A stretch of DNA of 64,000 bases from Chondrilla cf. caribensis. Its lineage: Eukaryota; Porifera; Demospongiae; Chondrillida; Chondrillidae. The position numbers and the translations under genes are program-made. Position 1 is the stretch's first letter; each line of letters starts with the position of its first letter. Location: assembly GCA_964020155.1 (NCBI GenBank), contig OZ026547.1, positions 3,899,095 through 3,963,094 on the forward strand. Direction: 5' to 3'. Below the pieces are notes generated by a model. That model was given only the letters and a program-made list of their open reading frames with translations. It was not told the DNA's origin and made no database searches. Below are positions 18,064-64,000 of the stretch, in pieces.

Positions 18064-19167
18064 TCATTCATATGGCTCACCCAGGTCGGTATAGTACAAT
18101 CCCTTCTGTCCAGAACAACAGTAGCGGAAACAACAAGCAACCGACACCAGAAAAGTTATCCCAATCAAAATTGTCATGATTACAGCAATAGGAAGGATTA
18201 TAGCCAGCAGGGGGACAGCACTTGTTGGAATACCTGCATACATATGAATAATATTGCATGATTGATATACACAATAACAGTTATGAAAAATTACAGTTTA
18301 TGTTGATCTCAAAGTATGTATGTCTACATAGTAAAAATTCTGTGACGGACTATATATTTTGCTGCACGAGCGTACAAGTACTAAATTGTTATTTCAAAGT
18401 TTCACAGTATATTATGTGTAAATGTTATTGTATACATAATAATTGTAATGAAAATTACTGTGTGGGCTTACCATCACACATATCAACTTCCACATTCAAC
18501 CTTGCATAAGTCTTCTCCCCTCTTCCTTCTTCAGCAGTTGTTATAGCTGTCACAACGAAGACAAATGGAGAAAAATCACCGAAAATTTGAATTGACAAGC
18601 CATCGAGGTCTTCCATGGTCAAAATGTAGGAATCATTTCCTGTTTTGTTACCATGTGTTAAATGGTACTCCTTGGGGATGGCTGAAATTTCAATTTGCAA
18701 TGTTTCAGAGCCATCATCCTCATTAGTTATTACGTCCAAATCAATATCAATAGTTTTGGAAGGAGAATTGTCATCAAAGCAAATGGCCATACCGTCATTG
18801 AGCCTTATTTTGGCTTGTGAAGGAATAGGTCTAACAACAAAGGCAATTACTCCTGAACGTGAAGCTATTTCTTCTTCTCTGCTAGTAACAGCATGAGCAT
18901 TCAGAGAAACATTTCCTGTGTAGCCCTCAGGAAGGATCATTTCAACTTCTCCAAAGTCATTGGGATAAAATAACCATCTTGCGCCATCTATTACTCCTTT
19001 ATTAAAGGTTGTATTGGTAGGGTAGTTTTCAATGTATACAAAAGTGGTCACAGAAAGGGAACCATTTTGCACCACTTCTTTGGCTGATATAAGTATGATA
19101 ATAGGCTGTCCCTCCACACCTCCTTGACTTGAGGTTTCCAGTACTGGTGGTTCAATAGGTGGAGTGT
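18064..19167 (-). CDS. Gene A exons 38-39: membrane-proximal beta domain, transmembrane helix and short tail
   Basis: Exon 38 (residues 3745-3976) begins DTPPIEPPVLETSSQGGVEG. It is beta-rich and has strings such as LPEGYTGNVSLNAHAVTSRE and MAICFDDNSPSKTIDIDLDV, reminiscent of Ig-like repeats in bacterial RTX adhesins. Exon 39 supplies SAVPLLAIILPIAVIMTILI followed by GITFLVSVACC, one long hydrophobic helix, then a tail of 21 residues (FRYCCSGQKGLYYTDLGEPY with a last E) before TGA at 18064-18066. Four cysteines at the membrane face (ACC...YCC) could be palmitoylated; the tail also has an acidic tyrosine stretch. With the N-terminal signal peptide this makes a type I protein. Confidence 0.85.
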
Positions 19168-22100
19168 CTATAGTAGTAATTAAAAATATGCATACATAAA
19201 GTTATACATCACAATATTATTATAATGTTATATTACCATGTAAACTACATAATTTTTCATAGATATATACAGTAAATACAATATATCAGCAAAAAACAAG
19301 TAATTCGAGTTTAAAAACTTGTGGGGCTGCCACCCCCACACTCGAATTACTTGGGCGTCTTTTGTAGTTTCAAAAGAACCTATGCTGAAATTATGTTCGA
19401 CGGAGCTTCTGTGCACGAATTCTAGACCGTGTGTTGCGGCTACGTGTAGGAACACATATTATATATATATTATATCTATCTATATACTGTATCGAACCAT
19501 AGATGCTCTATGATCGAACGAGCATTACATACCGGAAGTCGAAATGAAAACAAAATATTATAATATATTATAATATACTTATAATGTATATTATAATATA
19601 GTTGGGTGACCATACAACCCGCAAATTACTGAATGTACATCATGGGTGGATCGTAAATATACCTTTTGAACAGTCATTTCCATAGTATCCAAAATCACAC
19701 TGGCAGATTCCAACTGATGTACATTGACCTCTCATGGAACAATTTTGTGGGCATTGGATAGATGGCAGAATCAGAAGAATAGAATTGTCCAAAGCCTGCT
19801 CTAGTGGTTGCTGATTTCCTACATTGTCCACTGCAGATGCAAACACTCTGTATACATTGCCAGGAAGTAGGGATACAATAGCTACATCTGCTGTAATCCC
19901 AAGAGTCAGGGGTTTCATATCTCCACCATCTATGTATGAATAACATAAAAATATGAAATATTCCAAAAGGTATTGCACAACAAATTAGCTAATAGATTGT
20001 TGACTCAGATGTGATGCTTAACAAACCTGTTATTTCATATAAGTCGACTTCCCTAACTCCAGACTCGCTATCAGTTTTGTTCAATTCAATAGTGACATCA
20101 CTGCTAGACAATGACCCATTCTGTACACTAATGTTCACATCAGGAGGTTGTTTGTCAATCTACAGACGAAAATGTTTGTATATTATTCACGCACATGTAC
20201 ATACGTATGCACAGTGGTACCCACTTGATCATAAGGAATTTTCAATTTCTATATACAGAACCATTTGTATTCCTTTACCATAGCAATAAATATACCTGAT
20301 AGAATACTCTACTATAGTAATGAATATGCTTAAAGGGATATTTTGGATGTAGGAATAGTAATACTGAATTGTCTGTATTCATTTTGTATAGTAGTCTGTC
20401 TGTTTGAAGGCCTATCATTTCATTACCCCTATTGTAAATCTTGTAATACTTGTAACACGTGGTATACATACAAGTTGATTTGTGAAGTTTCGAAGCCCAA
20501 GGTTATTGCTTCCTGACACTCAAGTATATCCCCATGTACCCAGTAAAGGCGGGGTATAACACATATGTATCCCGTTAAAACAATTGAAAGCACGTTGGCG
20601 TTATGAATGCAGACAAGAATTCTTGCGAGGAAAGATTTCTTTAGAAGCTGAAAACCGCGACAGTAAAACCTTTAATAAGAGGCAAGTTAACAATAACTGA
20701 GTACCCATCAGCTCTCCTAGCAAAAAGGGGTGTGGGGATAATGATGACAGTGATTGTTTCTCGGAGCATACTGACTTAGAAGAGTGGACAAACACTTATG
20801 GGTCAAAAACGCCACCAAGAGAACCAAATGGGCTGAGTAACTATATCCAGCCTAGCCCAAACCACAAAGTCTTCAACCTGAATGACCAATCAATTCGTGT
20901 TATAATCATTCTCAATTCGCTGCCCTTCTGAAAACACGACAGTTTTGTGCACTGAGTTTGTGTTCCTTTAACTGAATTGGTTTGGTCTCTAGTGGTCGTG
21001 ATATTGTATATCAGTATTGTTGGTGCATTGATTGTCTGGTGTTAAGTGACAAGTGTGGCGATAATTGATAGCTTCCTTTCAATTAAGAAAACGGGGTATA
21101 TCAGTAATGAAGTCGGAAATATACCCCGATATATCGGGAATATACCGTAGTCAGTGCTTTTGAAGTTAGGTGACAATATCACCAATCGGGATACATGTAT
21201 GGTATATACTATAAACTCACAGTGTTGAATATTGGTGGAGTTTCAATGGGTTCATTTTCATCGAAAATGATAGAAGCTTGTGCATCAATTCTTGCCATAT
21301 TTGGTACAGAGGCCTTCGGTCTGATGGAAAACACCACAAAACCCTGACCACTTGTTCCATTATTTGGAGGTAGGAAGCCGATACTTGGATCAGAAGGGGG
21401 TGCACCTGAAAATCATTGATTGAACACACATAATTGCATTTCCTTTCTATATGTTTTAGGTTGAATTTCACACTTCCAAGATATTAAGTGGAATGTGATG
21501 CCAATAATTATTATTGATGCAATTGTGGCATCTCAAACTAGCAAATACAAGGCCACCTGTTATCATCAAAATAAGCATATATCCTACAGACATTTCCCAC
21601 ATACCTGTGGATGCATCAAGACTTTGTAGTTCCCAAACTGCTTCTCTTTTAACAATGTCAATGCCAGCACGGATACGAACTATAACACCATGAGTATCAA
21701 GTACATCTATTGTATCCTGTATGTAAGTAATAAAGGGACACGCTTATACATAGGGTCTTGTCAAATATCATAAACAGCAAAAAGCAATGTACCCGTCTGA
21801 AATTGTTCAAACCTACATAATTAAAATGTTGTACTGTAATATACAGACGTTTGTTTACAGATACAATACATTTTACAGTTGTCTGCATGTAAGATTTCTT
21901 ACATAGGTACTATAATATCGTGCAAATATTTCATAACATTAGCTATGAAGTGTAGATGCTGAAACAGGATAATTGAAACTGTTGTGGGAAATCCATATCT
22001 GGGAGTATGATATTATCTCCAATCAACCTGGGTTATAACCAGCCCATTACCATGGCAGTGTGAGACAACTATACAGGATATATACATTTAATATATCCAT

Positions 22101-25100
22101 ACTAAATATGGTGGAATGCATATTATATATGAAAAGTACGGATATATAAAAAATCTGTATTAAGAAATAGCAACAGACTATTAGGACCACTTGATGTAAG
22201 TGCATATAAGTACGAATGTATAGCCACCACTCGAATATTTGTTACTTTACCTGAAGAACAGCTCTCTCTTGGGGTTCACGTACAATACTTCCAAAACCGA
22301 ATGATCCGACTCTAAATGTCCTTATGTCGAGATCATCATCTAGTTTGTACGTTATGAGGACACGCTGAGCAGGAGCTGTAGCATTTGGGTGGTTTTCAAA
22401 TCGTATTTTGTACTCCATCAAGGTCTCAGAAGGAATAAAGTGAGCATCACCATATCCAGCTGGGCCTATGATATCATTCTACAGAGAATTAAGAAGAAAT
22501 TTATGTTTCAGTCATGGAAATGAATTGAAACTTTGGATATGATTTGCCTCACAGGGTCAAAAGAACGAATGACATCAATTATAGCATCAGAGATTCTCTT
22601 TTTTACAGTTCCTCGAATTATACTTTCCAGAATAGCTTTTGCTCCTTTAGTAGAATCTCTTTGAAGGAAATCATGAAGTAAGTCTTGTAGCTTTTTGAAA
22701 ACTGATGATGATACAAGAAATGTAATAATATAAAAATAAATATTATCATACAATACTCATGCAAATGCAGTATATAGAATGTGTATACTGTAAATCTGTA
22801 TGTAATGATTTCATTAATTTGACTTATAATTATAATGGTGTTATGATAATATTATTTTGTAAAATATTATAAATTAAATCTATTGTTGGGAAGTTTGGCA
22901 GACATAATATTCCCACCAAACAGATGTAGTGTCTGCTTGCTCTCAGCAGCCTTTTTCAGTTATATTTTACTCAGGGTCTTACTAAGTTACTAAGGTTTGT
23001 TTTCCCTCATATATAGTGTCAAACACTCACAATTTCAACTTATGTACCAGCTACACATAGGGTTGCCTGCCCTGTGGGTGGACACTTCAGTTAATAATAA
23101 TAATACACTTAGTAAAACATTTTGTACATCATTCATTAATTTTAGTGCAACAGTCCAAGAGATCCAATTGCTCATGTGCCCCACCTACAAATTGAAGCTC
23201 TAATTGACATCAGACTTAGTATATGCACCAACTCGAAGGTTATTTAATAATTATTAATCTATTTCTTTTTATACATTACAGTAATTATTATTAGATTATG
23301 TAAACAGGATACTATTCACAATGATAACTCCTTGTATCGGTAATATATTTAGCTTCATTGAAGTGCTTACTGCCCTTGCAATAGGAAAGTTTTTTTAAAT
23401 ATCAGGGACAACAATTATAATAAATATTCATTATTATAAGTGCACTATGTACAATACACCTTTGAGTTACCTTTGTTCCTTGGATATACAGGAATGTGGG
23501 ACAATGCTTGGTCAATAATACCATCCACAATAAGTCTATCCCACTTTACCGGCTTCCCATCAATAAGTGATTCTGTGATTCCTCCAAGCACACCTACTCC
23601 AAATTCAACTGTAAAAAGGCCATAAAATGTATTCATTATACTGTATATGAAACATATATTTGGTGTTTACAATTTGTGCCTTTCAATAAACATGCACTAA
23701 CAATCCAATACTTTTTATGAACATGTAATAATATTTAAGTAAGTTTAGTGTGTAATGTAACTCTTTTTATGGTATTTCATCCCAGATGACTCAAAAGTGT
23801 TTTGCCAGGACCTGTGATGAGATCTACCATTTTCTATGGCATGTACAGGATTGTTCACTAATTGGTGGCTAGGCCTACCACTCATTTCACAACACACAAC
23901 CATAATAATACATCATACAATTCACAGAACAACATACTAATCCCTTTGGCAAATTTGCCTATATTTTTTGCAGTACCAAGCGTTCCATCTACAGCTCCAC
24001 TTAAGGCAGCATTTGCTATACCTAAGAAACAAGAGTACAATAGGACATAATAGATACATTTACATAGCCATATAATGTGTTTTTTCCTGAAATATTGATT
24101 TAAAACAATTCAAATTTTAAATCAGATTAACCATATAGTACGTGCATGCATAAGTACTAAATGTATTTATATATAATATGTATATATATATACTAGCTAA
24201 TTATGAATAGATACCTCTATGAAGAGTACATGTTCATGTGCATAAATGAGATACGTAGTGTATAGAACACGAGTAAATTTGTAATTCAGGAATTAATTAT
24301 CAATATCACTACATAGGACATTAAGGAGTTAACACAATGTAGATAACAATTATTTATGGTATACAAATCAGCAATGAATGATAATGGGTACAAACCTCCT
24401 GGAGTAATCCGTTCCCCAGCAATAACTTTATTGATAATATGAAGAGACACTGATTTAATTGCTCCTTTTGCTGCTCCACCAATAAACACTGCTGGTACAT
24501 GTATAAACAATCCTTGGGGATCTTTAACTTCAACAGGGTTATTATTTGCATAGGCATAAAAGTTGACACTGTTCCCATAGATTTCTGGAGAGGAGAAAGA
24601 AAATCATATTACAGCATTATTATTCATAATTGGGATGGAAATTTCAGTGGTTAAGACTGGGGCACAGTGGGAGTATGGCATACAAATGCCAAATCCCGAG
24701 GACGCAAAGCACCAAGGGCGAGTGCATTATATATGTTACACTATCTGAGTGTTCATGTGTTAACCTACAGCATCTATTGTTATCACAAACATTGAAAGCT
24801 TACATCAGCTAATAGTTTAAAAGTCTAATACAAGGGTTAGGGGTCCGTACATTATAAAATTGATGCATAAAGGTTCCATTCCCATGCATGGTAAAGGTTG
24901 CTATGCAACTTGGAAGTGCACATACAGTACACCTGCATATTCACATACTACATACAGGTATGTATCAGATCCCATCAATGCAAAAGGCAAGTTCATATCT
25001 AAAAATACTAACAGTCACCTGCAAATAAGACTGTAATTGAAACTTGACACTGTGCAATCATTTATTGCAGAGGAAAAGGTATGTGCAGTCTTGATAATTT

Positions 25101-28100
25101 AATGTAATAATCAGTAATCAGTAATGGAGACATTAAAGACTAGTATCAAAAATATATACCAAGAAATGCAATGATTGTATATTATACCAGTGAAATCAAA
25201 GGCAAATGCATTTAAATTAATAATATTATAGTAGCTGGATGCCTTAAATTCTCTTGAAATAAATTTAGCAATGGAAAGATACATACAGTATGCACCATTT
25301 AAAAATAAATAATATCATTTCATATAACCTCACCTAATGGATCTGAGCTAATGAATCTGCCATGTTCTGCATCATAACATCTTGCTCTCATATGGTACAT
25401 ATCGTCCAGTCCATGAACTTTTACAATACCATACTGACCAAGGTACTGGAAACCATTTGTTAGTTTTTCTGAACGATGGAGGACTTTACCAAAGGGATCA
25501 TAGGAGTATTCATTCATAACTTCACCATTCTCATTCACAAGGTGGATGATGGACCTGTGTGTATAGGCAATTATATTTTCCATTGACTTGCTATTATGGT
25601 ACAAAATGAAAGACTATGGCCACATATTTTCCCTGGAAGCATGCAACTCATCTGAGTGAAGTATAATGCTTACCCCTCTCTGTCTAAGTAATAGAATGAT
25701 TTTGTTTGTTCCTTAATGTTTGCTGTAGCAATCAATCCTTCTTCATGTGTGTGTACAAAATATACTGTTTCATCTCCTTCAACCTAATGATAAGGATATA
25801 GTGATTATAAAATGCTGTGGAATTTCAAAATACCTTTGTACTTTTTCATTTTACATGAAATAAATTTTGATAGTAATGCATCTTCCTGCATGGATAAAAC
25901 ATTGGTTTGTACTGTATACAAATACGTAGGTATACGTAGATATAATGTAACATATGGCAGTGGGTGAATGACATGATCAAAATCTTTTGCAAGAATACAT
26001 CCATTTACATTATATAGTGGAGGGGATGCCTGGATGGGGTACTAGGCATTAGATAATTGCATTAACAGGTGAATGTGCAAACAAATTACCTTATTAGGGC
26101 CGTTTACACATAACACTGGTGACTTTCTGGTAAATGTCTAAAATATACAGTGACACAAATGTGTGTGTATAACTGGCTGCCTCCATATTATGAAGAATTA
26201 AACTAGGTAGGCTTTTCACCCTATCTTCCTGTCTCGATCCACCTATGTATACAATTGTTTGATCAAGTGTTGTCTTGTGTGATTAAAATTTAATATATAC
26301 CTCTGCAAGTTAACTTTCTTCTTTATGTACTCAGTTATGTATGTATGTAGATGTACTGTACATGTCATACTTACTTCAGCAACAATGTCATCCCCAAAGT
26401 ATCCAAAAGGATCAATTATGTATGTTGCAAGGGTAGAATCAGTACAGTTTCTCTGATACAGGTTACCAAAAGCAGTGTAACTGTAAGAACAGCTGAAGGA
26501 CATAAAACATAAGAAAACCATAAAAGTATTTGGGATACTATTAATATTCAACAGATATATTAACATTCATTGTACACTGCCTATTAAGAAGATAATAAAC
26601 TAGCTCATACTGATTGTACTTGTACCAGTACATTGATCATAAAGTACATTGTCAAACATTTTCAAAAATTTTTCTGTAACTTCCTGGGGGCTCTATATTA
26701 CATATATTGCAGTACTAAATCCTCCAACATCTACTCTATATATTATGTTCATGACAAACTACATGCATCTAGTATTTCATTGTGTGAGTTTTAGAAGGAA
26801 ATTAGTAATTCAATCCAATAATCTACAAACTGGTCATTTACAGGTAAACATTGGATCCTTTTACCTCCTTTCAGTAGTTTCAGTGAGAACAAGCCTTCCT
26901 TCAGCATCAAATGTGAAGCTTTGAGAGCCTCCAGATTTCATTTTTTTCATAAGATTCCCATCTCGATCATACCAGAAAGTTTGATCATCAGCATAAGTAG
27001 TATATTGGTTGAGATTGTTGACAGAGTATCCATTATCAACATTATTAGTTGTTATGGTGACTCTATTCTTTCGACTGTCATAAGCAATTTCTGTACTGTC
27101 TCCACTGGGATCAGTCCACCCTATCAGTTGACCAAATGCATCATAAATATACGACCAATTACCTTGAATGGTTGCTAGTTTTTCCAAGTGACCATCTCTG
27201 TCATAATAGTGAACAAAGTATGACAGGAGAGTACCATTGGGAAGATAGTTTGATATTTCTATGAGTCTTTCTGATGTTGGGTTGTATTTGTAAGTTGTGT
27301 AGCCACCATTCCCAAGAGTCTTCTTGACAGGTCGGAGGTGGTTAGCATATTCCCATTCAGCAATAGCCTCACTGGTATTAGCATATCTCACTGCAATTAG
27401 CCTATACCTCCAATCATAATCATAAGTAATGTTGAAACCATGGTTATCAGCTAGAAAAGTACGTTGGTTCCATTCATTGTATCCATAATATAGTGCATGC
27501 CCATTGGGATATGCCACCATGTCAGGCAAACCATTGCTGCTGTATGCCACAGACACATTACCAAGGAAGTTGACACCCTTAACTATTTGTTGCCTGTTGT
27601 TGTAGTCAAACATTGTAGTGAGTCCAAGGTCATTGTCTACAGATTTCAACACCTACAGTGATCAGATTGACAGGTTAGTATAATGCATTATCATAATAAA
27701 GATTACATTTCAAGTATAATATTATATTGATTGTAAGGAAACACTGTATGTATATACATGTTCGATATTATTATATTATTGCTAATAAGTAAATTATCAA
27801 GTAGTCAGTAGTTAGTTCAAAACTTAAAGAAGTGTATACATCACTGAGTTGTGTAGTTAATGCCAATACTGTAGATGAAAATGATAGCTGTGTATCTATT
27901 AAAGTGTATATATGCATGCACAGTATATAATTAAGCACAATTATAAGGAAATGCAAATGAATGTAGCAGTGCGTCAAGGTGCAACATATTGTGCATGGCC
28001 GGACCAGTAAACATTGGTATACAGTCAGGCCTCTTTACAACATCATGTCACTATCTATAATTTGGCAGTCTCTGTTAACATGTCTTGTAGACATAGATGT

Positions 28101-43100: not shown

Positions 43101-46100
43101 TAATAATGTGAGAATTGTTATTGTCTAATATATTATTTATATTGTAAATGTATGTATGTATTAAATTTAAGGTTTGAATATTTTTTATATGAACTATGCA
43201 GTTTATATTACTAATTGTTATATATATCTAGTATAGTCAAGAGACTGAGTAGATACACTGCAGTTGGCAGTACCACTAGTGCAGTATGACAGGAGAATTG
43301 AGGAGGGGCTGGTTGCTGTGGTGGCTTCGTGGCTCAGTGGTTATGGTGACTACAGTCAGACGCCCTGGTTTGAGTTCCGCAGTTGCCAGTACTTCTCTTT
43401 TCTCCTTTCTCCATGAGCAGGTTGATTTCCCATTAAAATTCTATAACTACATAGTTTGCAACTGATTTCTATTTCATGGGCCCACAGGAATATACAGTAA
43501 GATACACAAATAATATATTTTGTGAAACTGCAATGTATGCAAGGTATAGGGCCGCCATTTTGTTTTCGTGTCATCGTTTCATATCATCGCACTCTATGAT
43601 AATTAAAGCAGATCACAAGGTTATGACTATATTTTCACCATAGAGAATGTTATTTCATCCCATTTTTGACATGTGTGAGAATTTGTATGGTGAAATCTTG
43701 AAACTCATAAAATTCTGCATATTTCAGTAGGGATCGAAGAATTAAAACAAGATTTACTTTTGTAAAACTTGAGATATTGCTGTATTCTATATTTTGAGTC
43801 TAGACACTTTTAGTAGTACTCTAATCCACAGCCTTTTGAATCTGCACCTTTTTACAGATGGAAATAAATGTTGAGTTTATCCAGTGAAAAAATGAGATTA
43901 CACAAAAAGTTTTGATAATGAATTATGCTCAAAATTGGTTTTATGTTATGACTCAACCTTGGAGTGGAGAAAGAGGACAGGAGTACAATTTTGTCATGAT
44001 GTTAGTTGTCATTTTGGCCACAGTTTAAATGTACATATGTCATACCTGTGTATGCATGGATACGTACGTATACTGCATACATGAGTACTAATAGAAAAAT
44101 AATACTTCCTGTGTTATCACTAAGTACGTAAGCCTCAATTTGTAAGTGGACCTGTCTTATACAAACATAGATCAGCCCTATTTACAATGAGATCAGTTCT
44201 ACTTACAAATGGATCAGTCCTACTTACAAATATATCACTCCTAATCTACTTCAAGATCATATGAAGATCAGACTGATCAGTCCTAGGCCTACAGAACATC
44301 CTATAAGCAGTACAGCCATGTGTTCAATTTATGTTCACATGCACAAATAGGATACATACATAGATTACATTAAAATCATGATATTGCATGCTTTAGGAAG
44401 AGAAAATACATAATTCACTTATAATTCAGCTTCAACTTTGATGAATCATACACTTTTATTATCTGCCTTATAATTTGCAAATGAAATTATGCATTATGAT
44501 ATTACATACCCATTGTTATCCTCTGCTGTATAGCAGAAAAGGTTTGGTCCAGATTGTTCAGTTGATGGACTCCATGTTATATTAACATAAAACTGTCTTG
44601 GGTTCTCTTGATATTGTTGAAGAATGGATTTGACTAATCCACTAGGTGACACAGTGATGATTTCACGTATGCTGAAGGTTATGAAATTCAAATATATTAT
44701 GCATGTATTATAAAACAATTCTTACACTTATACTTATCTCATACTAGCTATAATTTATATTGTGTGAAAAATATGCTGAGAATTAGAAATTGATCTGGAA
44801 TTCAAGTGCAAAACTATGTCATAATATTATGAAAAGACAAAATATCTTCAGCATCCATTCTTTTAAATCTGCAGAATACACCCATTAATAATAATGTAGA
44901 AGATCAAATTTTTCTTGTACCAAGTGTACAAATTTCCACTTCAACAGGAAAACTGGTTAATTTATAGAAAAATAGCTAGATATTGTCCCATTATTAATAT
45001 TGTAAATAATATTTGATGAGATTTTAAGATCAACTTGTGCTATATGTATGTACATTCATTTCAAACCTTGCGAATTCAGCAGCTTCTGCAATGATTGGCT
45101 CATGAAATGTTGTATTAAATGGAACACCAACACATGATCCAGCCTCTCTGGTAATTCCAACAAACTTTGGAGAAACAGAGCAGTTGGCTGTAGTCGAAGT
45201 AAACACTCGAACAAGAAACTGGAGTGGGACGCTGCTCATTGGAACAGTATCAGTGGGAGTCAAGAAATCCTCTATCTGAAGTGCTACAGCATACCATCCA
45301 ACTCTTCCAACAGCTTCATAATGAAGTGTACAGTCCCTCTAAATAGCCCAGAAAGTGAGTATGAACTCAATAGAATTGAAACCTGTCTAATAGTACTAGT
45401 GGACACATAAACCTTTTCCAAGTGGAGGTAATTAGATAAAAAAATTCTATGTGTACGTAACTGCAACAGAAATTTGGCTAGAAGTCGAGTGCAAAGGCTT
45501 CACCAAACATAATATCTTCAGTGAAGGTGTTTAAAACCTGAAAGAGATTCCTAAGTTATTTGAGTGTGGGGTACAGTAGCCCCACAAGCTTTCTAGCTTC
45601 ACAATCAATAGTGAATTCACAGGAGTAGTCCCTGATTACATGTAAAAGCCCCAATGTAATATATATGAAAGCTATTTCATGTTGTAGAACTGTACAATGC
45701 TATAATATGACAGTAATAGACTTCATGTGATATTGTAACTATAATTTCACTTCATCAATATATATAATATTATGCATAAATTATACTATCCTCTACATAA
45801 TAAGTACCTCATTGAGTACAGCTCCTGAGAAAGTTTGACAAACTCCTGCACATTCTCTCAAGTCACTTCTAGACCATCTGCACCTGATTTCATCTCCATC
45901 AACATCCTCCACTGTAAACAGGTAATTAGTACATGATGAACACAAATGGAGAGAATATACAGAGTACAATAAAATGTCAACATAAAGGATCTGTATGACT
46001 CCTAGCCAATAATCACTGCTGCAATGCAAGGAAAATGGTATAAAACACCGCAAAAGTCATTGTAAAGAATCAAATATTTATACTCAATCGTAAGCAAAAA

Positions 46101-49100
46101 TGGTTATCAGTTCACACACTCCCTTATGATCCCTAAAACAATGATTATTATTCATGCATATAATTTGAGAATTTTTAATGCCATTTAATGAGCTTATACA
46201 TAATACATATTATATAAAAGTATAGCTACACTGCATAGACAAATATCTGAGAAAAAACATCATTAAATAACGATTTCAGGTGCTAGAATATGTGTGCATT
46301 TCTTTGGATAGACTATAATCATCAATAATTAGATGTAAATATTTTAAATACACTGTTAACATATTCTTCTGTGTATGTATGTATATTGTATTATACCAAG
46401 TAATTCTGAATCCAATTGTTACATAATTAGGGGGCTGCCTGTGGCAGCCCCTATATTGTTGCTTTCATTTCGACTTCCGGTATATAATGCTCGTCCGATA
46501 GATAGATAGATAGATATATAATACGTGTTCCTATGCGTAGCCGCAACAATGAATATATATGTTGTGTGTTTACTGGGAGCATTATGTTTTATAACATGCA
46601 ATTAGTTTTCAATCGAAAGATTTGATATATTATGTACAGTTCATGAGAAAGTAATATAATCTACATACATATATATGAAGGTATGTAAATTGTAACAGTC
46701 AATCAAAATTCAATGATGAACGATGTATGTACTGTAGATCCGGATACTTGCCTGGAATTACAATGCTGTGGTTGCATCCATGTAGAAGACGAACAATAGG
46801 AGACATGCTTGAGATTGGAGATGAATTAACTACTCCAGTATCAGGCCTAGCTGTGAGGTTTCCCTTCACTCTTACTTCCCAGCTACCACCTCCTTCAACC
46901 AAGTATATCCAGGCTCCACCAGAGTACCTAATATGGTCAAACACCTAATAATACTGAAATCAAAATAACCTGTAAACTCTGATATTCAGCTATATTTTAT
47001 GCGTAACAAAACTTGAATAGAGTGACTTTAAAGCTCATAACTACCTCAAACAGAGTCTGAAGGGGCTTAACCAAGCTCACAGTGTGCAGAGGTCTGCAGA
47101 CATGCAGTAACAGAAGTTGAAATAGCATACACAGACACTGACTGATCATGATCAGTTTATTTATGTGTTACAATAATGTTATTCTGCATTTCCATGTAGC
47201 AGAAGTTGAAATGGTACATGTATTGCCATTGATTGTGGTCTGCAGGCTGATCTACAGAGGTGCATATGCTAGTAACAGGATCTGCACATGGTGTCTAGAT
47301 CTGTTCTCATAACTGTGCATTAGCTACAGGAATATAAACGGCAGTTGTTTATGCATAAAGACTACATTATTCCACATTTCCGTAGGAACATATATTTACA
47401 TTGATCCCGAGATTCCTTGTTCCAGAAGTAAATTATAAAGCCAAAGTGGTTCAAAAGTAAATATGTGTCATTTTTGCAACCATTTTGATAGTTTTGTAAG
47501 AACAACACTACATACACAAGATGTAATAGCACACAAAGAGACCCATCAACTCTGGAAAGGACCATGCTCCCCAAAAGGCTGTTGGCTTGGTGCAACTCTA
47601 TGCAGGACAAGTTGCAGGAATTGAAGCGGCAATTCATGCAATGAATATGGCCTTTGAGGAAGAGCATTATTTTGACTTCTACAGTAATGCTGGTATATAT
47701 ATACAACTTTGTACATTGCACGTGCTTAACTTCTGTCACATGAAACACAGCCATGCAGCTGTTGACACGACCATAATACCTGAATGAAGCATGCTACGAA
47801 GTTGAGGTTTTGTCCGAATATTGATTGAATCGTCCAAAAATCGATTGTTTCAGTTGTGCCATCCAATCATCGGTATTGCAAAGATACAAAAAGTTCCAAA
47901 ATTCATAGTACGTATTACTTACTATCTTATAGAGACCTTGATAATGCTCATTATTTGGAGTTAATTGCTTTGGTATTTCTAGGATCTGGGAGTCTGAAAT
48001 TGATATGTCCGATTAGTAATTGCTTACATGTTCTGAACAGTACTGTTAAATTCTGATTAAGCCTCGACCTGGGTATTCAGCAGTTTCATCACATTTATAA
48101 GGTTTTAACAGTTATTTGTTGATAAACAGTATTAAGTGTTATTGAAAAGAGGGTATTTGCTAGGTAACATCTTGTGGATATGTTCAATGGAATTTTCCAT
48201 GGCTAGAGAATTCCATTGAACTTATCTACAAGATGTTACCTAGCCATTCCTTCCATTACCTAGCTTCATCACCTGCGGAAACATTTGGTGCAATAAATTT
48301 CTATGGCTAGAGAATTCCAGTAAATGAGTCTTTTAGTATATAAAATGTCCCCAGAGAAATTTCATTCGGTGACTGAGAAGTATATGGTTATTACCATTGT
48401 GAATCCTGATCTCTCTGATCTCCGAACTCTGGAGTATTATACCAATGTAAATCCAAATTCCCACATGTACCTGTTAGGAGAATAATGGTAGAAATGGTAG
48501 CCGTTTTCAATCTGTTCTCCTGGCAACGTATAAATTACTCTTCTTGAATAAGTTATGAACAGCTGTCAGTGATGAAGAACATTATATGTATATGATAACA
48601 AAGGATGCAGGAATTTGGATTTGCCGTTGGCATTAATTTCAGAGTTCGCAATTCAGAGGTTGGAGATCAGAGTTCAGAATTTGGAGTTAGAATTCCATGC
48701 GTCATTGAGTTGTGTCAGGCGTTTTCATGTGCATGATAAAATATGCCATGTTTCCAACATACTTGGGAATTTATATTGTATTGTATTGAATTATTACAAT
48801 ACAGGCTGAATGGCATAATTCCTCAATAAAAATTTCTATCGGCTATACAAATTCGTCCGACACATTTGGTCTTTCACAGAGGATTAGATAAATTGTTAGA
48901 TAACTTGAACATTGACAAGAATGAATCATTTTCACAATGGATTTCTTAAGCAGCCATTTGTCTCAACATTTCATGTACAGATAAGGACCAAATTCTTCAA
49001 AATATTTGGTCCTGGGGGATGGGTGACAGGGAATAAGGGGAACCAACTAGTTCAAACAGTTTGCAGAGGTCAGCATAGACATGCACAATGATCCACACTG

Positions 49101-50228
49101 ACTGATGGTTACAGCGTGCTCTTTCCAGGCGAATATAAATGTTAGTGTCAGCATCTCTAAAAGTGCATGCCTGATAGAGTGACTATAACACATCTACAGC
49201 CTGGTGCACAAAGTTATTCCGCATTTTTGTTTGTGAGATACATTAATATATGTTGAGATTCCTTATTCCACAAGAGAATCATTCAAACAAAAGTGGCTTA
49301 TCAGCTAGCCTATGCAATTTTTCGAACCGTTAAACATGCAGTTTTCTGAAGGTCAAAACTATGAACGCAAGTGTATTCACGCGTAAAAAGACTCGCCGAA
49401 GTAGGAACTTGCTCTCTCGTCGCTTCCTGCCTTCAGAAGGAGTTCCCAGTGTCTCTACATCTTTCTAGTGTTAGAGGAATGTACGGTGATTGAATGGTTC
49501 GTAAAGAATCGCGCCATTGCTCCGTGTGATCGACGATCGAAATGGTCTCGCGTCTCGTCTAAAACGTCAACGTGGTTGAAAATTCTCCTCGAACGTTTCG
49601 CAATGGGCATACAGGTCTTCCACAGGACCACTCGGACGTCTTCAAAAGAGTTTCGGTCCTTCAAAGATTGGCACGAGCGCGGAATATATGCGTCAAAAAC
49701 TTTTGTCGAATTCTTTGTATAAATATACATATTGAATATACACATAGTATAATAATACTATATCCACACCGGAAGCGTAGGCTGGCAGATCTCCAACTCG
49801 CTATTGTGGGGCTCGCTTAGGCTCGCCCCAAATAAGGCATGACACTCCCTCAGAGGCTGAACCACTCTTACTACTGACACACTTGTAGGTTGTCCAATCC
49901 CACAATATATTCAAGTACAGACTGTACATATGTTTATTGTGTGTGACCAATTAACCCATATCAGTGTTATCTTCCACCTTACAGACTGGACCAATCCCAC
50001 TGTTTACAGTGGTTTCAGGTTGTCAAATCTCACAGCATATCCAAGTAGGGACGTGTACATGTGTTTTATGAATAACCAACCCATATTGCTTTTATCTTGT
50101 AGCCTTACAGACTGGACCACTCCCATTGTTTACAGTGACTTCAGGTTGTCCCATCCCACGATATATATAAGTACAAACTATACACATGTTTTGTTTGAAT
50201 GTGTATGTTTATGTGCATCTCTCTCCCT

Positions 50229-50326
<98 letters not shown>

Positions 50327-50967
50327 ATGTATGTGTACATGTGTGCACAAACATTCTTTTTAACCTTTTGGTAGGAAGAAAAATTTTAATATGATCTGAT
50401 CATTTTCAGAAATGCTTCCATAAGACCTGAGTGTTAAATAGTTTGAAGTACCCATTACCCTTTGTAGTATTTCAACTCACGAGGCTTCAAAGTAATCTAC
50501 TCCTGACATGCTATATTGATACATCCTTGATCCAGAAGACCAATCCTCTGATGTACTGAAATCAGTACAGTAGTACTGCATACTACCCAGATTTCCAGAG
50601 CAACCAATTCTACATTGCAAGTTATCACTGAACCCAATTAGATTACCAAGCTCAATATCACTTTGTGAACATTGAGTTTCTGAACTAAAACTTCTCCTCC
50701 ATGCAATTCTGTGATTAATTTCAATCTACAGTATAGAAAATAATATAGACAATCAAAGTAAATAATATGAGTGCAATTAATTTTTATGAGAACCACAAAA
50801 TTGATCGAAAATATATTGTCGTAATGTTATATTAATGAACCCACAATTCCATTGAAATTGGCTGCATCCACGGGTTTCCACTTAATAATAGCCCCTCTGA
50901 AGTGACTGGACAGCACTTGGGCTATCAATAAGAAGCAGATTGTGAGAAGCAAAATGCCCCTCCACAT
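18064..50967 (-). CDS. Gene A: giant type I membrane protein with HYR-like, CARDB, RHS/YD, EGF modules (39 exons, about 4,032 residues)
   Basis: Exons in transcript order: 50845-50967, 50481-50725, 46752-46927, 45808-45911, 45067-45338, 44510-44671, 42995-43035, 41427-41518, 40943-41132, 40784-40861, 40430-40690, 39021-39290, 37591-38648, 37204-37324, 36239-36343, 35956-36146, 35411-35569, 32536-34705, 30627-32111, 30321-30462, 29707-29849, 29319-29562, 28864-29248, 28253-28546, 26865-27652, 26375-26492, 25674-25783, 25334-25554, 24396-24584, 23938-24021, 23471-23608, 22553-22701, 22251-22478, 21605-21716, 21221-21405, 20027-20159, 19663-19929, 18472-19167, 18064-18233. All phases match and the total of 12,099 nt is divisible by three, strong support for the model. 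Every intron is GT-AG except intron 3 (GC-AG). The start is bounded by an in-frame TGA 11 codons upstream and gives a signal peptide (residues 1-20). One in-frame TAG interrupts exon 12 (codon 606). Function is unknown; the architecture suggests a surface adhesin or receptor. It is not a teneurin, since teneurins are type II and lack CARDB. Confidence 0.85.
18234..18471. other. Intron 38 of gene A
   Basis: Short AT-rich intron with GTAAGC donor and ATGCAG acceptor on the minus strand. Nothing else is seen. Confidence 0.7.
19320..19555. repeat. Dispersed repeat, copy 1 (CCGGAAGTCGAAATGAAAAC family) in gene A intron 37
   Basis: The right end GCATTACATACCGGAAGTCG and AAATGAAAAC matches 51,430-51,460 on the same strand and 46,458-46,490 in reverse. 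The left part contains GTGGGGCTGCCACCCCC, also seen as GGGGCTGCC..GGCAGCCCC at 46,431, and the middle has GTTGCGGCTACGTGTAGGAACAC followed by TATC/TATA runs. Part order is the same in all copies. Confidence 0.65.
19663..20159 (-). CDS. Gene A exons 36-37: Ig-like domain followed by one EGF module
   Basis: Residues 3612-3744. IDKQPPDVNISVQNGSLSSS ... SGVREVDLYEIT and YRVFASAVDNVGNQQPLEQA form a second Bap-type Ig-like unit split by an intron. Exon 37 ends with CPQNCSMRGQCTSVGICQCD, then FGYYGNDCS, a six-cysteine EGF-like module of the tenascin/teneurin kind. A single EGF unit here, C-terminal to the RHS shell, is the reverse of the teneurin order, in which EGF repeats precede it. Confidence 0.8.
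20680..20775 (-). repeat. Dispersed repeat, copy 2 of the family at 1,640-1,750, in gene A intron 35
   Basis: Reverse-strand match to 1,640-1,750 (GAGAAACAATCACTGTCATC, TTATCCCCACACCCC). The surrounding intron (20,160-21,220) also has GGGGTATA/TATACCCC strings at both sides (20,540 and 21,090-21,120) that may be worn inverted repeats. No exon is seen. Confidence 0.45.
21221..22478 (-). CDS. Gene A exons 33-35: bacterial-type surface-protein domain after the RHS core
   Basis: Residues 3437-3611. NDIIGPAGYGD, then YKIRFENHPNATAPAQRVLI, then LDDDLDIRTFRVGSFGFGS, then RIRAGIDIVKREAVWELQSL, then IGFLPPNNGTSGQGFVVFSI and ASIIFDENEPIETPPIFNT. The same succession (ENDP..ATAPAQ.V, LD..LD..TF.LG...FG, G.L.PN...G.G.V.F...PK, I.F D.N.PI.T) is familiar to me from large secreted bacterial proteins, usually near RHS, dockerin or PKD modules. 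I know no animal family with it. It is intact here, with spliced introns inside, so it is a settled part of the host gene. Confidence 0.7.
22553..24584 (-). CDS. Gene A exons 29-32: end of RHS core and glycine-rich post-core segment
   Basis: Residues 3250-3436. Exon 29 completes the core with NSVNFYAYANNNPVEVKDPQ followed by GL, the N.Y.Y..N.P....DP.GL signature that marks the autoproteolysis point in bacterial RHS proteins. The first half of that signature, normally DPLG, is DPLE across the exon 28/29 junction. Then come VFIGGAAKGAIKSVS, ANAALSGAVDGTLG and FGVGVLGGITESLIDG, a small-residue-rich linker very like the pre-toxin segment after bacterial RHS cores. Exon 32 (VFKKLQDLLHDFLQRD ... 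AILESIIRGTVKKRI) is predicted helical. I do not recognise a toxin or enzyme domain here; the cargo position seems to be filled by ordinary linker and helix. Confidence 0.7.
25334..30462 (-). CDS. Gene A exons 20-28: RHS/YD-repeat shell and RHS core
   Basis: Residues 2435-3249. YD-type repeats are visible as YFNASTGHLEGI, YTYDASTQHLTEV, LTFDSETGTLVSE, YTYDDQSNL, YKYNPTSERLIEI, YYDRDGHLEKL, YIYDAFGQLIGW, WYDRDGNLMKK, FTFDAEGRLVL and YSYTAFGNLYQ. Exon 28 holds the hallmark of the RHS core: YSYDPFGKVLHR, then FQYLGQYG, then YHMRARCYDAEHGRFISSDP. In bacteria such repeats wrap into a hollow beta shell around a C-terminal cargo; in teneurins they form the extracellular barrel. The entry sequence SKRRTFGPMGQGWTLPW fits the G.GW start of an RHS N-terminal cap. 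Exons are short and out of register with the repeats. Confidence 0.9.
30627..32111 (-). CDS. Gene A exon 19: last CARDB repeat, PPC-like and IPT/TIG-like beta domains
   Basis: Residues about 1940-2434. It begins with TEWQIRNNGSIRATGYKCD, the ninth CARDB-like unit. Next is a stretch with TATVNMISGKDRVFKI and QNTKSGSYYLKVESSG, like a bacterial pre-peptidase C-terminal (PPC) fold. EILDVSPRQAAPLGSVTLSI then resembles an IPT/TIG domain. VVSMETPRPLRPGENGTATL with HIRNVGNTDIP is an N-x-G-N-T strand typical of DUF11-like units. The end, rich in W, N and S (NDVWTIIWNNFLKSCGTSW), leads into the RHS region. Assignments are by pattern only, and a profile search is needed to name each unit. Confidence 0.7.
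32224..32290. repeat. Near-perfect 67-bp palindrome in gene A intron 18
   Basis: ATCCTATTGATGTCCT at the left and AGGACATCAATAGGAT at the right are exact reverse complements, and the inner CAAAGCATA/TATGCTTTG pairs too. The loop is only a few bases. It would form a long hairpin in RNA or cruciform DNA. Confidence 0.8.
32536..37324 (-). CDS. Gene A exons 14-18: array of CARDB repeats
   Basis: Exons 14-17 (residues 1025-1216) and the 2,170-bp exon 18 (residues 1217-1939) hold about seven more CARDB repeats. Each starts with a D/L-L-x-V strand, then W/Y-x-V-x-N-x-G: VSWTVMNEGTG, VQYQVSNEGSG, LVNYSVVNQGEG, LRWKVSNRGNG, VTWTVANKGN, IEYKIVNRGR and LAFSVRNLGNG. W-x-D-x-(I/V)-(F/Y)-L-(S) follows, and each repeat ends near an acidic turn such as GENDGGNNI. 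The copies diverge strongly, so the array is old. Fusing several repeats in one exon while the first ones are split by introns suggests intron gain or loss after duplication. CARDB repeats usually act as spacers or adhesion units outside the cell. Confidence 0.85.
36394..36515. repeat. Hairpin repeat with CCCTCGGG core, copy 1 (gene A intron 14)
   Basis: The stem arms AGTTACTACATGCTCTC... and ...GAGAGCGTGTAGTAAGT pair, with a core of TTGGGTGCTTCGCACCCTCG and CTCGAGCAGTAAA. The same core and stem design occur at 54,740-54,854, and one-sided relatives beginning AATAGTTACCACA start at 39,507 and 52,728. It abuts the longer repeat at 36,535-37,165. Confidence 0.7.
36535..37165 (+). repeat. About 630-bp dispersed repeat, copy A (empty-site copy) in gene A intron 14
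   Basis: It is collinear with 52,785-53,296 joined to 54,072-54,115 (examples: GAATTCAAATA, CATAAGCATTTGCA, TACTTTCGAACATCAAGTAC, GGATCAGT.TGATACCAA, GTGTCCGAAATTA, CTTACAGGTT.CTGCAGTGCT). A shorter relative is at 51,845-51,955. The reading frames are broken and no protein family is recognised, so it is probably a non-coding transposon remnant. Confidence 0.75.
37591..38648 (-). CDS. Gene A exon 13: two HYR-like repeats, an FN3-like stretch and the first CARDB repeat
   Basis: Residues about 672-1024. It opens DTTPPVLSSL and ITCGEDYSVGRTGSPMAVD, then CRVHRIWSAVDDANNIAMET. This is the C...TG.P.A.D...Y.D...C....R.W.A.D..GN pattern of HYR-like domains. A second copy ends NWFVEDDCGMRTSFQQTIRV. 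Then LRWPQYPGAISYKVFVWRYG and FLWQVLYSINAS look like a fibronectin III-type strand set. The C-terminal part (YAYSGTEFELSWNVINLGN ... WYDAVYLG) is a CARDB domain, the cell-adhesion-related beta domain of bacteria and archaea. The exon is exactly as long (1,058 bp) as its counterpart in gene B. Confidence 0.8.
39021..40690 (-). CDS. Gene A exons 11-12: two Ig-like (Bap-type) domains; exon 12 has an in-frame stop
   Basis: Exon 11 (40430-40690, residues 495-581) reads DITPPTLSFISHPSYSNENV..., with FTD-type LYVRYTDLAGN at the end. Exon 12 (39021-39290, residues 582-671) starts DLQPPLVRLTSYP and ends TVIATDGVGNVG. This is the TPPTV...C...G.H...V.ATD..GN pattern common in bacterial adhesins and some marine animal proteins. 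In exon 12 the codon after QFTF is TAG (39217-39219), where gene B has TCC. The rest of the exon is conserved and open in the same frame, with both splice sites good. The exon is 270 bp with phase 1 at both ends, so skipping it would leave the frame intact. Confidence 0.75.
39565..39715. repeat. About 33-bp minisatellite, 4-5 units, in gene A intron 11
   Basis: GAAGAACACGATCTATTTCT with CTTTCTCTCGCC-type tails repeats four to five times with small changes. It gives minus-strand frames with repeated EREIDRV strings, which are a product of the repeat. Intron 11 of gene B has its own, unrelated minisatellite. Confidence 0.75.
40784..50967 (-). CDS. Gene A exons 1-10: signal peptide and N-terminal cysteine-containing module
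   Basis: Exon 1 gives MWRGILLLTICFLLIAQVLS, a clear signal peptide, then SHFRGAIIKWKPVD. Exons 2-6 (residues 42-360) form a module with ordered cysteines: CRIGCSG, GCNHSIVIP, DVDGDEIRCRWSRSDLREC, AGVCQTFSG, GWYAVALQIEDF, SSVPLQFLVRVF, GSCVGVPFNTTFHEP and FCYTAEDNNG. I recall this arrangement from uncharacterised invertebrate extracellular proteins but cannot name a Pfam domain. The spacing suggests cadherin- or Ig-like folds, and the DGDEIRC and AEDNNG turns would suit calcium binding. Exons 7-10 (residues 361-494) include VTLLGG, EVVSIDVAISPNVTYPD and YHVLFDP. Exon 3 ends at a GC donor (CCAG|GCAAGT). Confidence 0.75.
41556..42064. mobile_element. 509-bp MITE with perfect 23-bp terminal inverted repeats (gene A intron 7)
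   Basis: 41,556-41,578 (TGCAAGCGAAAAGGGCCCTT plus AGC) is the exact reverse complement of 42,042-42,064. The interior is richer in CpG than its surroundings (ACGTTGCGCGG, GATACGATTCG) and has no transposase. It lies between exon 8 and exon 7 of gene A, and no target duplication was obvious. Perfect ends point to a fairly recent arrival. Confidence 0.8.
43325..43395 (+). mobile_element. tRNA-like SINE head with pol III boxes (gene A intron 6)
   Basis: Box A TGGCTCAGTGG at 43,330-43,340 and box B GGTTTGAGTTCC at 43,377-43,388 have near-consensus sequence and tRNA-like spacing. The flanks do not pair into an acceptor stem and the anticodon arm is poor, so this is not a working tRNA. A tRNA-derived SINE or a degraded tRNA pseudogene is the best reading. 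Confidence 0.55.
43531..43608 (+). repeat. Short interspersed repeat, copy 2 of 3
   Basis: TGCAATGTATGCAAGGTATA, GGGCCGCCATTTTGTTTTCG, TGTCATCG and CACTCTATGATAATTA follow the block order of 16,328-16,415. The small terminal hairpin is reduced here. Confidence 0.6.
44143..44245. repeat. Short degenerate tandem repeat (GATCAGTCCTACTTACAAAT-like units)
   Basis: About four units of 26-29 bp built on GATCAGTCCTACTTACAAAT, in gene A intron 6. No function is suggested. Confidence 0.6.
46430..46555 (-). repeat. Dispersed repeat, copy 2 (CCGGAAGTCGAAATGAAA family) in gene A intron 3
   Basis: Reverse-strand copy of the repeat at 19,320-19,555. It starts with the hairpin GGGGCTGCCTGTGGCAGCCC, then CATTTCGACTTCCGGTATAT, a (GATA)n run and CCTATGCGTAGCCGCAAC. 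Confidence 0.65.
47575..47700 (+). pseudogene. Possible reverse-transcriptase fragment from a retroelement
   Basis: The plus-strand frame reads QLYAGQVAGIEAAIHAMNMA and FEEEHYFDF. This resembles the QL.AG..GG.EAAIHAM...FE segment of reverse transcriptases of marine-invertebrate retroelements, but the following D-A-x-N-A-F motif is lost and no further RT blocks are open. It is therefore a short dead fragment in gene A intron 2. Identification is by memory of the motif and needs a profile search. Confidence 0.35.
48159..48244. repeat. 86-bp palindrome (gene A intron 2)
   Basis: GCTAGGTAACATCTTGTGGA on the left pairs with ATCTACAAGATGTTACCTAG on the right, and GTTCAATGGAATT pairs with AATTCCATTGAAC around a short loop. 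A partial extra copy (TATGGCTAGAGAATTCCA) follows at about 48,302. Confidence 0.8.
49888..50165. repeat. Tandem repeat, about 126-bp period, about 2.2 copies
   Basis: GGTTGTCCAATCCCA, GGTTGTCAAATCTCA and GGTTGTCCCATCCCA begin successive copies. CTTACAGACTGGACCA recurs at 49,979 and 50,104. Confidence 0.7.
50219..50325. repeat. (CT)n-(GT)n compound microsatellite
   Basis: An uninterrupted CT run of about 65 bp is followed directly by a GT run of about 40 bp, close to exon 2 of gene A. Simple-sequence frames here encode only S/L or V/C repeats and are not genes. Confidence 0.95.
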
Positions 50968-55400: not shown

Positions 55401-56453
55401 GACAAATTATTGTTCAACATCGATAAGTCTCTGAGCTTTGTTTGAATCCTACATGATAAGAACATTCAATAACAATAAATAATCGTGTGGGGAGCCAATA
55501 TATAATTTGTCTTAATTATTATATACATGTTTTTTCTGTAATGTAATTATAATATTATTGTATATTATCAGTACTGACTACTGCTGCTGGAAAATATATA
55601 TTGATCCAACTTAAAACTTATTAAATCCTACTAAACTGTATTATGATAACTTACGGATTGACCATTAATCAAATTAATATTGTACATAGTAAGTAACCTC
55701 TGATAACAATAATATGCATTATTATGAGAATTATTTAGACAAGGTAGTGGAATCCAGCTCGGTTGGCAAAGTTACATTGCATGTCCATGTGCTCAGGTAC
55801 ACTGGTCGAGACTGGATTTCCTTGGTTGAAGGAGGTGGTGACTGGGAAGTACGAGTGAAGGGAAACCTCACAGCTAGGCCCGACACTGGAATAGTTAATT
55901 CATCTCCAATCTCCAGTATGTCTCCTATTGTTCGTCTTCTACGTGGATGCAATCACACCATTGTAATTCCAGGCAAGTCTAGCTATAATATAGTAGAGGG
56001 CATACATATATATGTACATGAGTATGTGCACTTTTAATTCCTTGCCAACATTCTATGGAGTATATATATAGTTGTATTAGTATGTATAATATTATAGTTG
56101 TTTATGTTATTCCAAAATTAATAATAGATATGCATTAAAATAGTATAATAAATCACCGCAAGAAGTCAATTGGTAATGGTAGAGTTTCTTATCAAATGTG
56201 TGAAGAGTGAGCAGCAATGCCTAGCATAGTCTATTCATTTTTAATGCAATAACTATAGCCTTCAGTTGGCATGCTTGTGTTTGTTTATATGTATGTATTT
56301 ATTACATGGAAATTTGTAGCTGGAGATGTTAATGGGGATGAAGTAAGGTGCAGATGGTCCAGATCTGACTTGAAGGAATGTGCAGGAGTTTGCCAGACAT
56401 TCTCTGGAGCTGTACTCAATGAGGTATGTTGCTGGTATGTATTTTGTATGTGT

Positions 56454-56501
<48 letters not shown>

Positions 56502-63942: not shown

Positions 63943-64000
63943 GTGAGCTATATTCCTTTGGTGTATAACTTTGGGTGGGCATGTCAACCATGTCTATATA

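Follow-up and report, generated by a model that had tools for sequence, protein, structure and literature searches.

Gene A and its paralogue

The window, that is, the whole 64,000-nucleotide stretch of DNA analysed here (C2:3899095-3963094 of a 137-Mb assembly of Chondrilla cf. caribensis in 37 contigs, on which the genome-wide searches were run), contains a giant gene on the reverse strand, gene A, and the beginning of its full-length paralogue, gene B, on the forward strand (Table 1). Contig C37 of the same assembly (19,283 bases) is a mitochondrial genome, with a COX1 that has TGA inside, 24 tRNA genes by ARAGORN (10 and 14 in its two halves), and a 78-residue frame (L023:5483-5719) identified by eye as atp9; mitochondrial atp9 beside a full set of tRNAs is what a demosponge, and not a cnidarian, would have. 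The joined exons of gene A amount to 12,099 bases, or 4,032 codons and a stop. Its junctions were chosen by picking donors and acceptors with equal phase in both copies, and, since equal phase was a rule of the choice, it is not independent evidence for the model. All 39 exons recur in order in paralogue B, and the length difference between the two copies is a multiple of 3 in 37 of 39 exons, which is more than chance. Separate exon predictions with a stronger intron penalty gave 41 exons for A and 42 for B, and the two products predicted in this way are 64% identical over 3,960 aligned residues. Under a light intron penalty the exon counts rose to 160 and 164, mostly through false microexons, and these predictions were dropped. 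The end of exon 26 was placed by inspection, because with the alternative end the frame is lost and 85 stops appear. Two junctions are nearly tied with their runners-up, namely those of exons 31-32 (18.2 vs 17.4) and exons 38-39 (26.1 vs 25.7). A sequence-only reading of this DNA had proposed 39 exons joined in phase to about 4,032 codons. Both counts were reproduced exactly with the help of the paralogue, which that reading had not used, but the joined frame is not open, being interrupted by a TAG at codon 606.

Table 1. Features of the window, with positions counted from its first letter
Feature	Positions	Strand	Basis or remark
Gene A, ATG to stop, 39 exons, 4,032 codons	18064..50967	-	Splice model paired with paralogue B
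Exon 1: start codon, signal-peptide-like stretch (MWRGILLLTICFLLIAQVLS), then SHFRG motif	50845..50967	-	Hydropathy
Exons 2-12: N-terminal SHFRG module and Ig-like (Big_13-like) modules, residues 42-672	39021..50725	-	Domain matches
Start of intron 3, GC-AG type (GCAAGT)	46731..46751	-	Common to paralogue B (B 55973)
In-frame TAG, codon 606, exon 12	39217..39219	-	Joined frame of gene A
Exon 13: HYR_4C-like module and first CARDB unit	37591..38648	-	Both weak on the exon alone
CARDB array, nine units by motif, residues about 916-2050, exons 13-19	31780..37917	-	Pfam and motif
PPC/IPT-like part, residues about 2051-2435	30627..31779	-	Weak PPC match (E 0.027) on exon 19 alone
Exons 20-28: RHS/YD shell, DUF6531-like at its start	25334..30462	-	Pfam/NCBIfam
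RHS-associated core, residues 3194-3275	24508..25502	-	TIGR03696, E 1.6e-17
Post-core Gly/Ala-rich segment, residues 3276-3435, fast-evolving	22556..24507	-	Alignments
DUF7619 (FEN..ATAPAQRV), residues 3436-3611	21221..22555	-	Pfam PF24595, E 2.2e-16
Exons 36-37: OmpL47-type/fn3-like module (below cut-off) and EGF (19753-19670)	19663..20159	-	Pfam/NCBIfam
Exon 38: juxtamembrane C-terminal domain	18472..19167	-	Low-confidence model, beta structure, mean pLDDT 65
C-terminal membrane helix, about residues 3983-4009; short tail in exon 39	18136..18216	-	Hydropathy
Paralogue B, full-length, head-to-head with A	52486..64000, on past the window to about G000:C2:3984943	+	About 1.5 kb from the start of A
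Sulfotransferase exon, part of a neighbouring gene	14979-15794	+	Pfam Sulfotransfer_2, E 3.6e-19
Minisatellite, mostly 54-57-base units	9816-10928		9816-10462 alone has 11.9 copies; repeat DNA that resembles coding sequence, several frames being open

Domain architecture of the product

In the whole product of gene A, the models over their cut-offs were CARDB (E 7.8e-40), RHS_repeat (3.2e-16), Rhs_assc_core (1.6e-17), DUF7619 (2.2e-16), and YD_repeat_2x (2.9e-6), and those below it were DUF6531 (9.8e-5), Big_13 (1.7e-5), the OmpL47-type model (5.7e-8), and HYR_4C (0.069). EGF_2 was likewise below its cut-off in the whole product (2.7e-4) and over it on its own exon alone, and two teneurin EGF models (EGF_TEN/EGF_Teneurin) matched weakly, below cut-off. 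This single EGF lies after the shell, at residues 3715-3742. The C-terminal hydrophobic helix reaches a peak of 2.86 on the Kyte-Doolittle scale, used here in place of a dedicated predictor, and is followed by Arg, Lys, and a short tail. Together with the signal-peptide-like start, this helix gives the product of A, by its sequence, a type I topology. A structure model of exon 25, within the shell, consisted entirely of beta strands, at a low confidence (mean pLDDT 61).

The order of modules given by the sequence-only reading, from signal peptide through HYR-like, Ig-like, and CARDB parts to the RHS shell and core, DUF7619, EGF, and C-terminal helix, was thus recovered by Pfam, NCBIfam, and hydropathy, with the HYR-like, Ig-like, and EGF matches below cut-off in the whole product. 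Its count of about nine CARDB repeats agrees with the nine unit motifs, whose starts fall between 964 and 1959, the ninth being divergent and added to the pattern after inspection; Pfam itself delimits five stretches. The PPC/IPT-like units that it named correspond to the PPC match on exon 19, which is weak.

Relatives in animals and metagenomes

Relatives of the product were found in six named animals, Montipora foliosa, Gigantopelta aegis, Amphiura filiformis, Anneissia japonica, Antedon mediterranea, and Nematostella vectensis, all of them annotated as uncharacterized. The two crinoid members are full length, and align to A at residues 11-3984 (Anneissia, 33.8%) and 5-4013 (Antedon, 33.1%). 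The others are partial models: the coral Montipora aligns to A 238-3975 (36.5%), the sea anemone Nematostella, whose gene is LOC116611783 and whose model stops in DUF7619, to 1-3570 (37.2%), the snail Gigantopelta to 829-3330 and 3425-3995, and Amphiura to 1573-3383 and 3427-3954. Six metagenomic proteins of 3,332-4,127 residues (P0004, P0007, P0008, P0148, P0149, and P0155) also belong to the family, of which P0007 aligns to A 5-3838. Their contigs are only 12.8-17.4 kb long, so that the gene can have few or no introns there. A viral origin of these metagenomic relatives was considered and set aside, as a scan of viral contigs returned nothing. The crinoid and metagenomic proteins are the best evidence that exons 1-39 make one polypeptide, which in the sponge would come from a single transcript.

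The C-terminal end is less uniform. A C-terminal helix is present in three of the six named relatives, the coral and both crinoids, some relatives being incomplete. The hydropathy scan found none in the Amphiura member, and the short hydrophobic C-terminal tail of Gigantopelta could be a GPI signal. In the same scan no end helix was seen in any of the six metagenomic proteins, which contig ends may cut; five of the six finish in or just past a TSP1-type module. The searches for relatives scored 1,730 and 2,276 candidates sharing most words with the query, and most matches carry no species name; the taxa given here are therefore a lower bound.

A search with the N-terminal part (a 2,100-residue query, covering candidates of about 1,155-3,675 residues) returned many further proteins, mostly of about 2,200 residues (P0097-P0123), that match this part of A at 34-39%. 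When three of them, P0097, P0101, and P0110, were set against the whole product, their alignments were confined to its N-terminal part. Thus, there seems to exist a larger family that shares the front end of A and is without the shell.

Bacterial kin of the central block

With the DUF7619 part as query, 234 relatives came up in bacterial and archaeal genomes, of which 80 were kept. Among these 80 loci, by bit thresholds set by the authors, CARDB matches occur at 62, RHS matches at 8, and both at 4, while neither the N-terminal module nor the C-terminal EGF/anchor end was matched at any of the 80 within 10 kb on each side or up to the contig end. A CARDB-RHS-DUF7619 block in one open frame is found in Nodosilinea (L028, 4,487 aa) and in a Clostridia MAG (L024, at least 4,255 aa), and the bacterial database protein P0018 aligns to A at 908-3275 and 3425-3709. 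These single-frame blocks indicate that the join of CARDB arm, shell, and DUF7619 is also bacterial, and that the animal proteins add the two ends. One further DUF7619 protein (L038) is from Candidatus Paraprochloron terpiosi, which we take to be a cyanobacterial symbiont of a sponge. Eukaryotic matches of isopeptide domains have been judged likely false positives or contamination (PMC12617251); the multi-exon structure of gene A shows that DUF7619 can be truly animal. An isopeptide bond has been predicted for the DUF7619 family (PMC12617251), but looks unlikely in the present proteins: at what is presumed to be the matching position, directly behind PND/PNE, 10/10 rows have Ile or Met in place of Lys.

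For the phylogeny, an RHS stretch of sufficient length was available in 65 of 147 proteins; a quick tree was made with 52 of 66 rows and a careful one with 45 rows hand-picked from 74, metazoan teneurins and paralogue B being in neither. In the careful tree a long stem with 100/100 support leads to a single clade of all 13 eukaryote-type rows. Within it the demosponge row groups with metagenomic rows (97/90), and the cnidarians, mollusc, and echinoderms make up the other half (96/90). Three bacterial teneurin-like rows (P0077, P0086, and P0088) fall apart from this clade, and a tree that forces them together with the family is modestly rejected (p-AU 0.036). Their Pfam accessions include PF24329, PF25020, and PF25021, which we take to be the teneurin FN-plug, TTR, and NHL. 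The quick tree has a branch (SH-aLRT 99) that unites the family with 16 bacterial rows, of which P0024, P0025, P0032, and P0035 are without DUF7619 in the Pfam list. The link of the family to RHS-DUF7619 bacteria reaches 59/14 in the careful tree, so that this tie is unsure.

The profile A1 matched only six distinct bacterial Rhs sequences in the PDB at E <= 0.01, those of T6SS effectors (7q97, 8qja-8qjd, and 8cp6). P0007 matched Rhs chains and SGS1 (8fjp, 43 bits). The coral member scores highest with 9pt5, a bacterial teneurin-like protein (92 bits), and next with Rhs proteins (84 bits for one of them), and its best matches to teneurin-2 chains run through EGF repeats.

Integrity of the gene pair

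At the position matching codon 606 of A, paralogue B has a sense codon, and the surrounding stretch is conserved in all seven relatives that cover it, among nine aligned. An open chain of 4,011 codons can be obtained for A by extending exon 11 by 8 bases and starting exon 12 just after the TAG; this alternative loses the conserved stretch. The TAG could be a null allele, an assembly error, or a codon avoided by splicing. Paralogue B has its own breaks, exons 18 and 23 being out of frame. Over 3,082 aligned codons in 36 exons (exons 18, 23, and 39 have a stop in B and were left aside, that in exon 39 being the final one), A and B differ with dN 0.22 and dS 0.96. The resulting dN/dS of 0.23 implies that A and B alike have been constrained through most of their past. 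Values of dS are far below the rest (about 1) in exons 33 and 35-37 (0.10-0.38) and in exon 3 (0.18), with 0.70 in exon 34, which suggests tracts of gene conversion between the copies in exons 3, 33, and 35-37.

Elsewhere in the assembly, RHS_repeat matches were confined to A and B (a lower bound), as were those of a search with exon 25, and the third DUF7619 site is a decayed 3' copy on contig C7 near 2287453 (L019:305-3394), which spans about exons 32-38, carries stops, and looks by eye nearest to paralogue B. The pair at the locus might itself be recently dead in the sampled individual, in which case the family would be real and no full product would come from this locus. The TAG in A, the frame breaks in B, and the decayed copy on C7 all fit this reading. 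However, the low dN/dS speaks of long constraint, and assembly errors or the 4,011-codon chain might account for the apparent damage. A dead pair is thus regarded as unlikely, although it retains a real share of belief.

The core and the segment behind it

The core of A contains Arg3234, Asp3247, and Asp3271, at spacings of 13 and 24, and the sequence PVEVKDPQG from residue 3266 fits the pattern PxxxxDPxG. The spacings are those of R2103, D2116, and D2140, with which the bacterial teneurin-like protein BiTLP cleaves itself (PMC13018210). Read directly from the alignment of ten family rows (A and nine relatives), Arg and both Asp are kept in 10/10 and the full motif in 9/10, the remaining row, P0008, having the motif without its Pro. 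Of the 25 other proteins listed with A, three (P0008, P0012, and P0015) gave no match to the motif pattern. Because the core keeps the Arg-Asp-Asp set and the cleavage motif, the product of A is predicted to cleave itself after Leu3275, with the shell then held non-covalently on a membrane stub.

The segment of about 160 residues that follows is much less conserved, with a mean identity of 25% against 48% in the core and 53% in DUF7619. Between A and B, exons 30, 31, and 32 (48, 37, and 33% identity) are among the least alike, together with exons 21, 23 (frame broken), and 39. Hydrophobic stretches occur just past the cut site in 7 of 12 relatives scanned, but A itself has none above 1.6 in its post-core segment on the hydropathy scan. 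In the mosquito protein SGS1, the chain is cut at the equivalent site in saliva and hydrophobic helices remain in the shell (PMC9935623). This behaviour, together with the kept catalytic set, led us to propose a cut yet held-together surface protein for A.

A rival view keeps the family and makes its members plain covalent adhesins, in which the core has lost its cleavage, the post-core segment serves as an internal linker that exits through the shell wall, and only the teneurin-like binding at the surface remains. Teneurins have indeed kept the shell and lost cleavage (PMC6425310, PMC13018210), mammalian teneurins being described as without the cleavage motif (PMC13018210), and their internal linker exits through the shell wall (PMC6425310); a C-terminal anchor, too, needs a chain that leaves the shell. 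Against this, the catalytic residues have been retained in every row, and the whole motif in all but one, across a long-branched clade, which makes a core that has stopped cutting doubtful.

It is also conceivable, if improbable, that the protein is a surface-displayed polymorphic effector, with the post-core segment as a cargo that may act on membranes and is released against microbes, prey, or non-self cells. A variable post-core segment stands beside a conserved core and DUF7619, as it does in RHS proteins of bacteria, the hydrophobic stretches past the cut would suit such a cargo, and dN in exons 30-32 is 0.65 against 0.22 overall. However, dN/dS there is 0.30, with dS (2.18) near saturation, giving no sign of positive selection; no effector model of Pfam or NCBIfam matched in A, and the C-terminal piece is anchored in the membrane of its own cell.

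That two neighbouring genes, one for a CARDB protein and one for an RHS protein, were wrongly joined is very improbable: Lunatibacter does carry the CARDB, RHS, and DUF7619 parts in three adjacent open frames (L094) and two Mytilus records cover just the N-terminal part or stop within the shell, but in both copies the exon 19-20 junction has a clear lead (32.6 vs 24.9 for the runner-up), and it is spanned by single records in all six named animals (predicted models) as well as by metagenomic and bacterial proteins. The claim of the sequence-only reading that both parts belong to one gene is thus supported by the colinear crinoid records and by the other animal and metagenomic ones that cross this junction, the animal records being predicted models.

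Comparison with known RHS proteins

Teneurins share with A a bacterial-derived YD shell with an RHS core on an animal surface protein. They are type II proteins with an N-terminal cytoplasmic domain, whereas A has a signal-peptide-like stretch at residues 1-20 and, by hydropathy, one strong helix at about 3983-4009; their EGF repeats precede the shell, whereas the single EGF of A follows it; and the CARDB arm, DUF7619, and kept cleavage residues of A set it apart from them. No Pfam model of NHL, TTR, FN-plug, or Tox-GHH/TCAP was among the matches of A at E <= 0.1. TEN_YD-shell (PF25023) matched neither the product of A nor the genome, and, since this model fails on A too, its absence from the genome is a weak test for teneurins. 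Sponges, placozoans, ctenophores, and cnidarians are reported to have no teneurins (PMC6297184, PMC6425310, PMC13018210).

Teneurins, the animal RHS proteins named when the locus was read from sequence alone, are not the only ones, for the SGS proteins of arthropods belong here as well (PMC3482391, PMC9935623). SGS1 (PDB 8fjp) resembles the A family in being an animal RHS shell with a retained cleavage site, and has a hydrophobic C-terminal segment in the shell (PMC9935623). It differs in its two beta-propellers, CBM, lectin, and wedge modules and Tox-SGS end, and, as far as described, has no CARDB, DUF7619, or SHFRG module (PMC9935623). Pfam models of beta-propellers and Tox-SGS were absent among the matches of A at E <= 0.1; this is a weak test of SGS kinship, because the surface modules of SGS1 are themselves unannotated by sequence (PMC9935623).

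Among bacterial proteins, those with CARDB, RHS, and DUF7619 (L028, L024, P0018, P0011, and P0015) have the same module order as A at residues about 908-3709. Being bacterial, their genes are intronless, and the animal ends were matched at none of the 80 loci, some of them cut by contig ends, whereas A has 39 exons, a signal peptide, an EGF, and a membrane helix. T6SS Rhs effectors, whose structures were matched by the A1 profile, carry secretion-system modules and toxin ends and are not known to have an anchor. BiTLP (PDB 9pt5/9ifo) has the shell, the core, and the Arg-Asp-Asp spacing of A, and differs in its TTR, FN-plug, and NHL modules (PMC13018210).

The sequence-only reading had proposed a separate, undescribed class of RHS proteins. 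This view is upheld by the opposite topology, the EGF after the shell, the lack of NHL, TTR, FN-plug, and Tox-GHH matches, and the separate position of three bacterial teneurin-like rows in a tree that had metazoan teneurins outside it. Among the matches listed in the literature on teneurins, animal RHS proteins, CARDB, and DUF7619, with most subscription journals and bioRxiv outside the scope, neither a description of such a family nor a paper pairing CARDB with an RHS repeat was found. The further term of that reading, receptor or adhesin, names a role that the architecture suggests.

A proposed cut and held-together surface protein

The reading that we prefer, and hold to be moderately probable, is that gene A belongs to an undescribed animal family of giant single-pass surface proteins with a bacterial middle, animal ends, and a shell that is cut and held together. 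The middle 2,700 residues, comprising the CARDB arm, RHS/YD shell, RHS core, and DUF7619, would derive from a bacterial surface protein, captured most likely once and independently of teneurins. Animal ends would then have been wrapped round this block, with the signal peptide and SHFRG/HYR modules in front and the EGF and membrane anchor behind. The protein would be secreted, and its CARDB arm and N-terminal modules would project and bind a partner. After the shell closes, the core, a putative aspartyl protease, would cut after Leu3275; the post-core segment would stay inside the shell, while the rest of the C-terminal piece would exit through an opening and be fixed in the membrane. The outer part of 3,275 residues would thereby be held on the cell only by the enclosed segment, and may act as a releasable head for adhesion or recognition.

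Several observations weigh against this reading. Both A and B may be damaged in the assembled haplotype, through the TAG and the broken exons 18 and 23. The C-terminal helix is seen in half of the named relatives and in none of the metagenomic ones, and P0008 is without the Pro of the motif. The strongest solved match of the coral member is a bacterial teneurin-like protein, the tie of the clade to RHS-DUF7619 bacteria is unsure, and the post-core segment of A is without a clearly hydrophobic stretch. More tentatively, and as a possibility to which we give less weight than to the preferred reading, a bacterial YD shell may have been adopted by animals once more, ahead of the split between sponges, cnidarians, and bilaterians, with its protease retained. 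The outcome would be a receptor class whose shell cleaves the chain that it belongs to and holds on to the membrane stub through a plug enclosed within it.

If this is true, animals would possess a surface head released by force or by a ligand, also in lineages that are reported to lack teneurins. In teneurins, the known example, a toxin shell of bacteria became an animal receptor. The family of gene A, which has members in a demosponge, cnidarians, a mollusc, and echinoderms and has kept the bacterial protease residues, points to another capture. It thus offers a testable model of how a self-cutting shell may become a receptor, and one of its members is in Nematostella, a laboratory animal.
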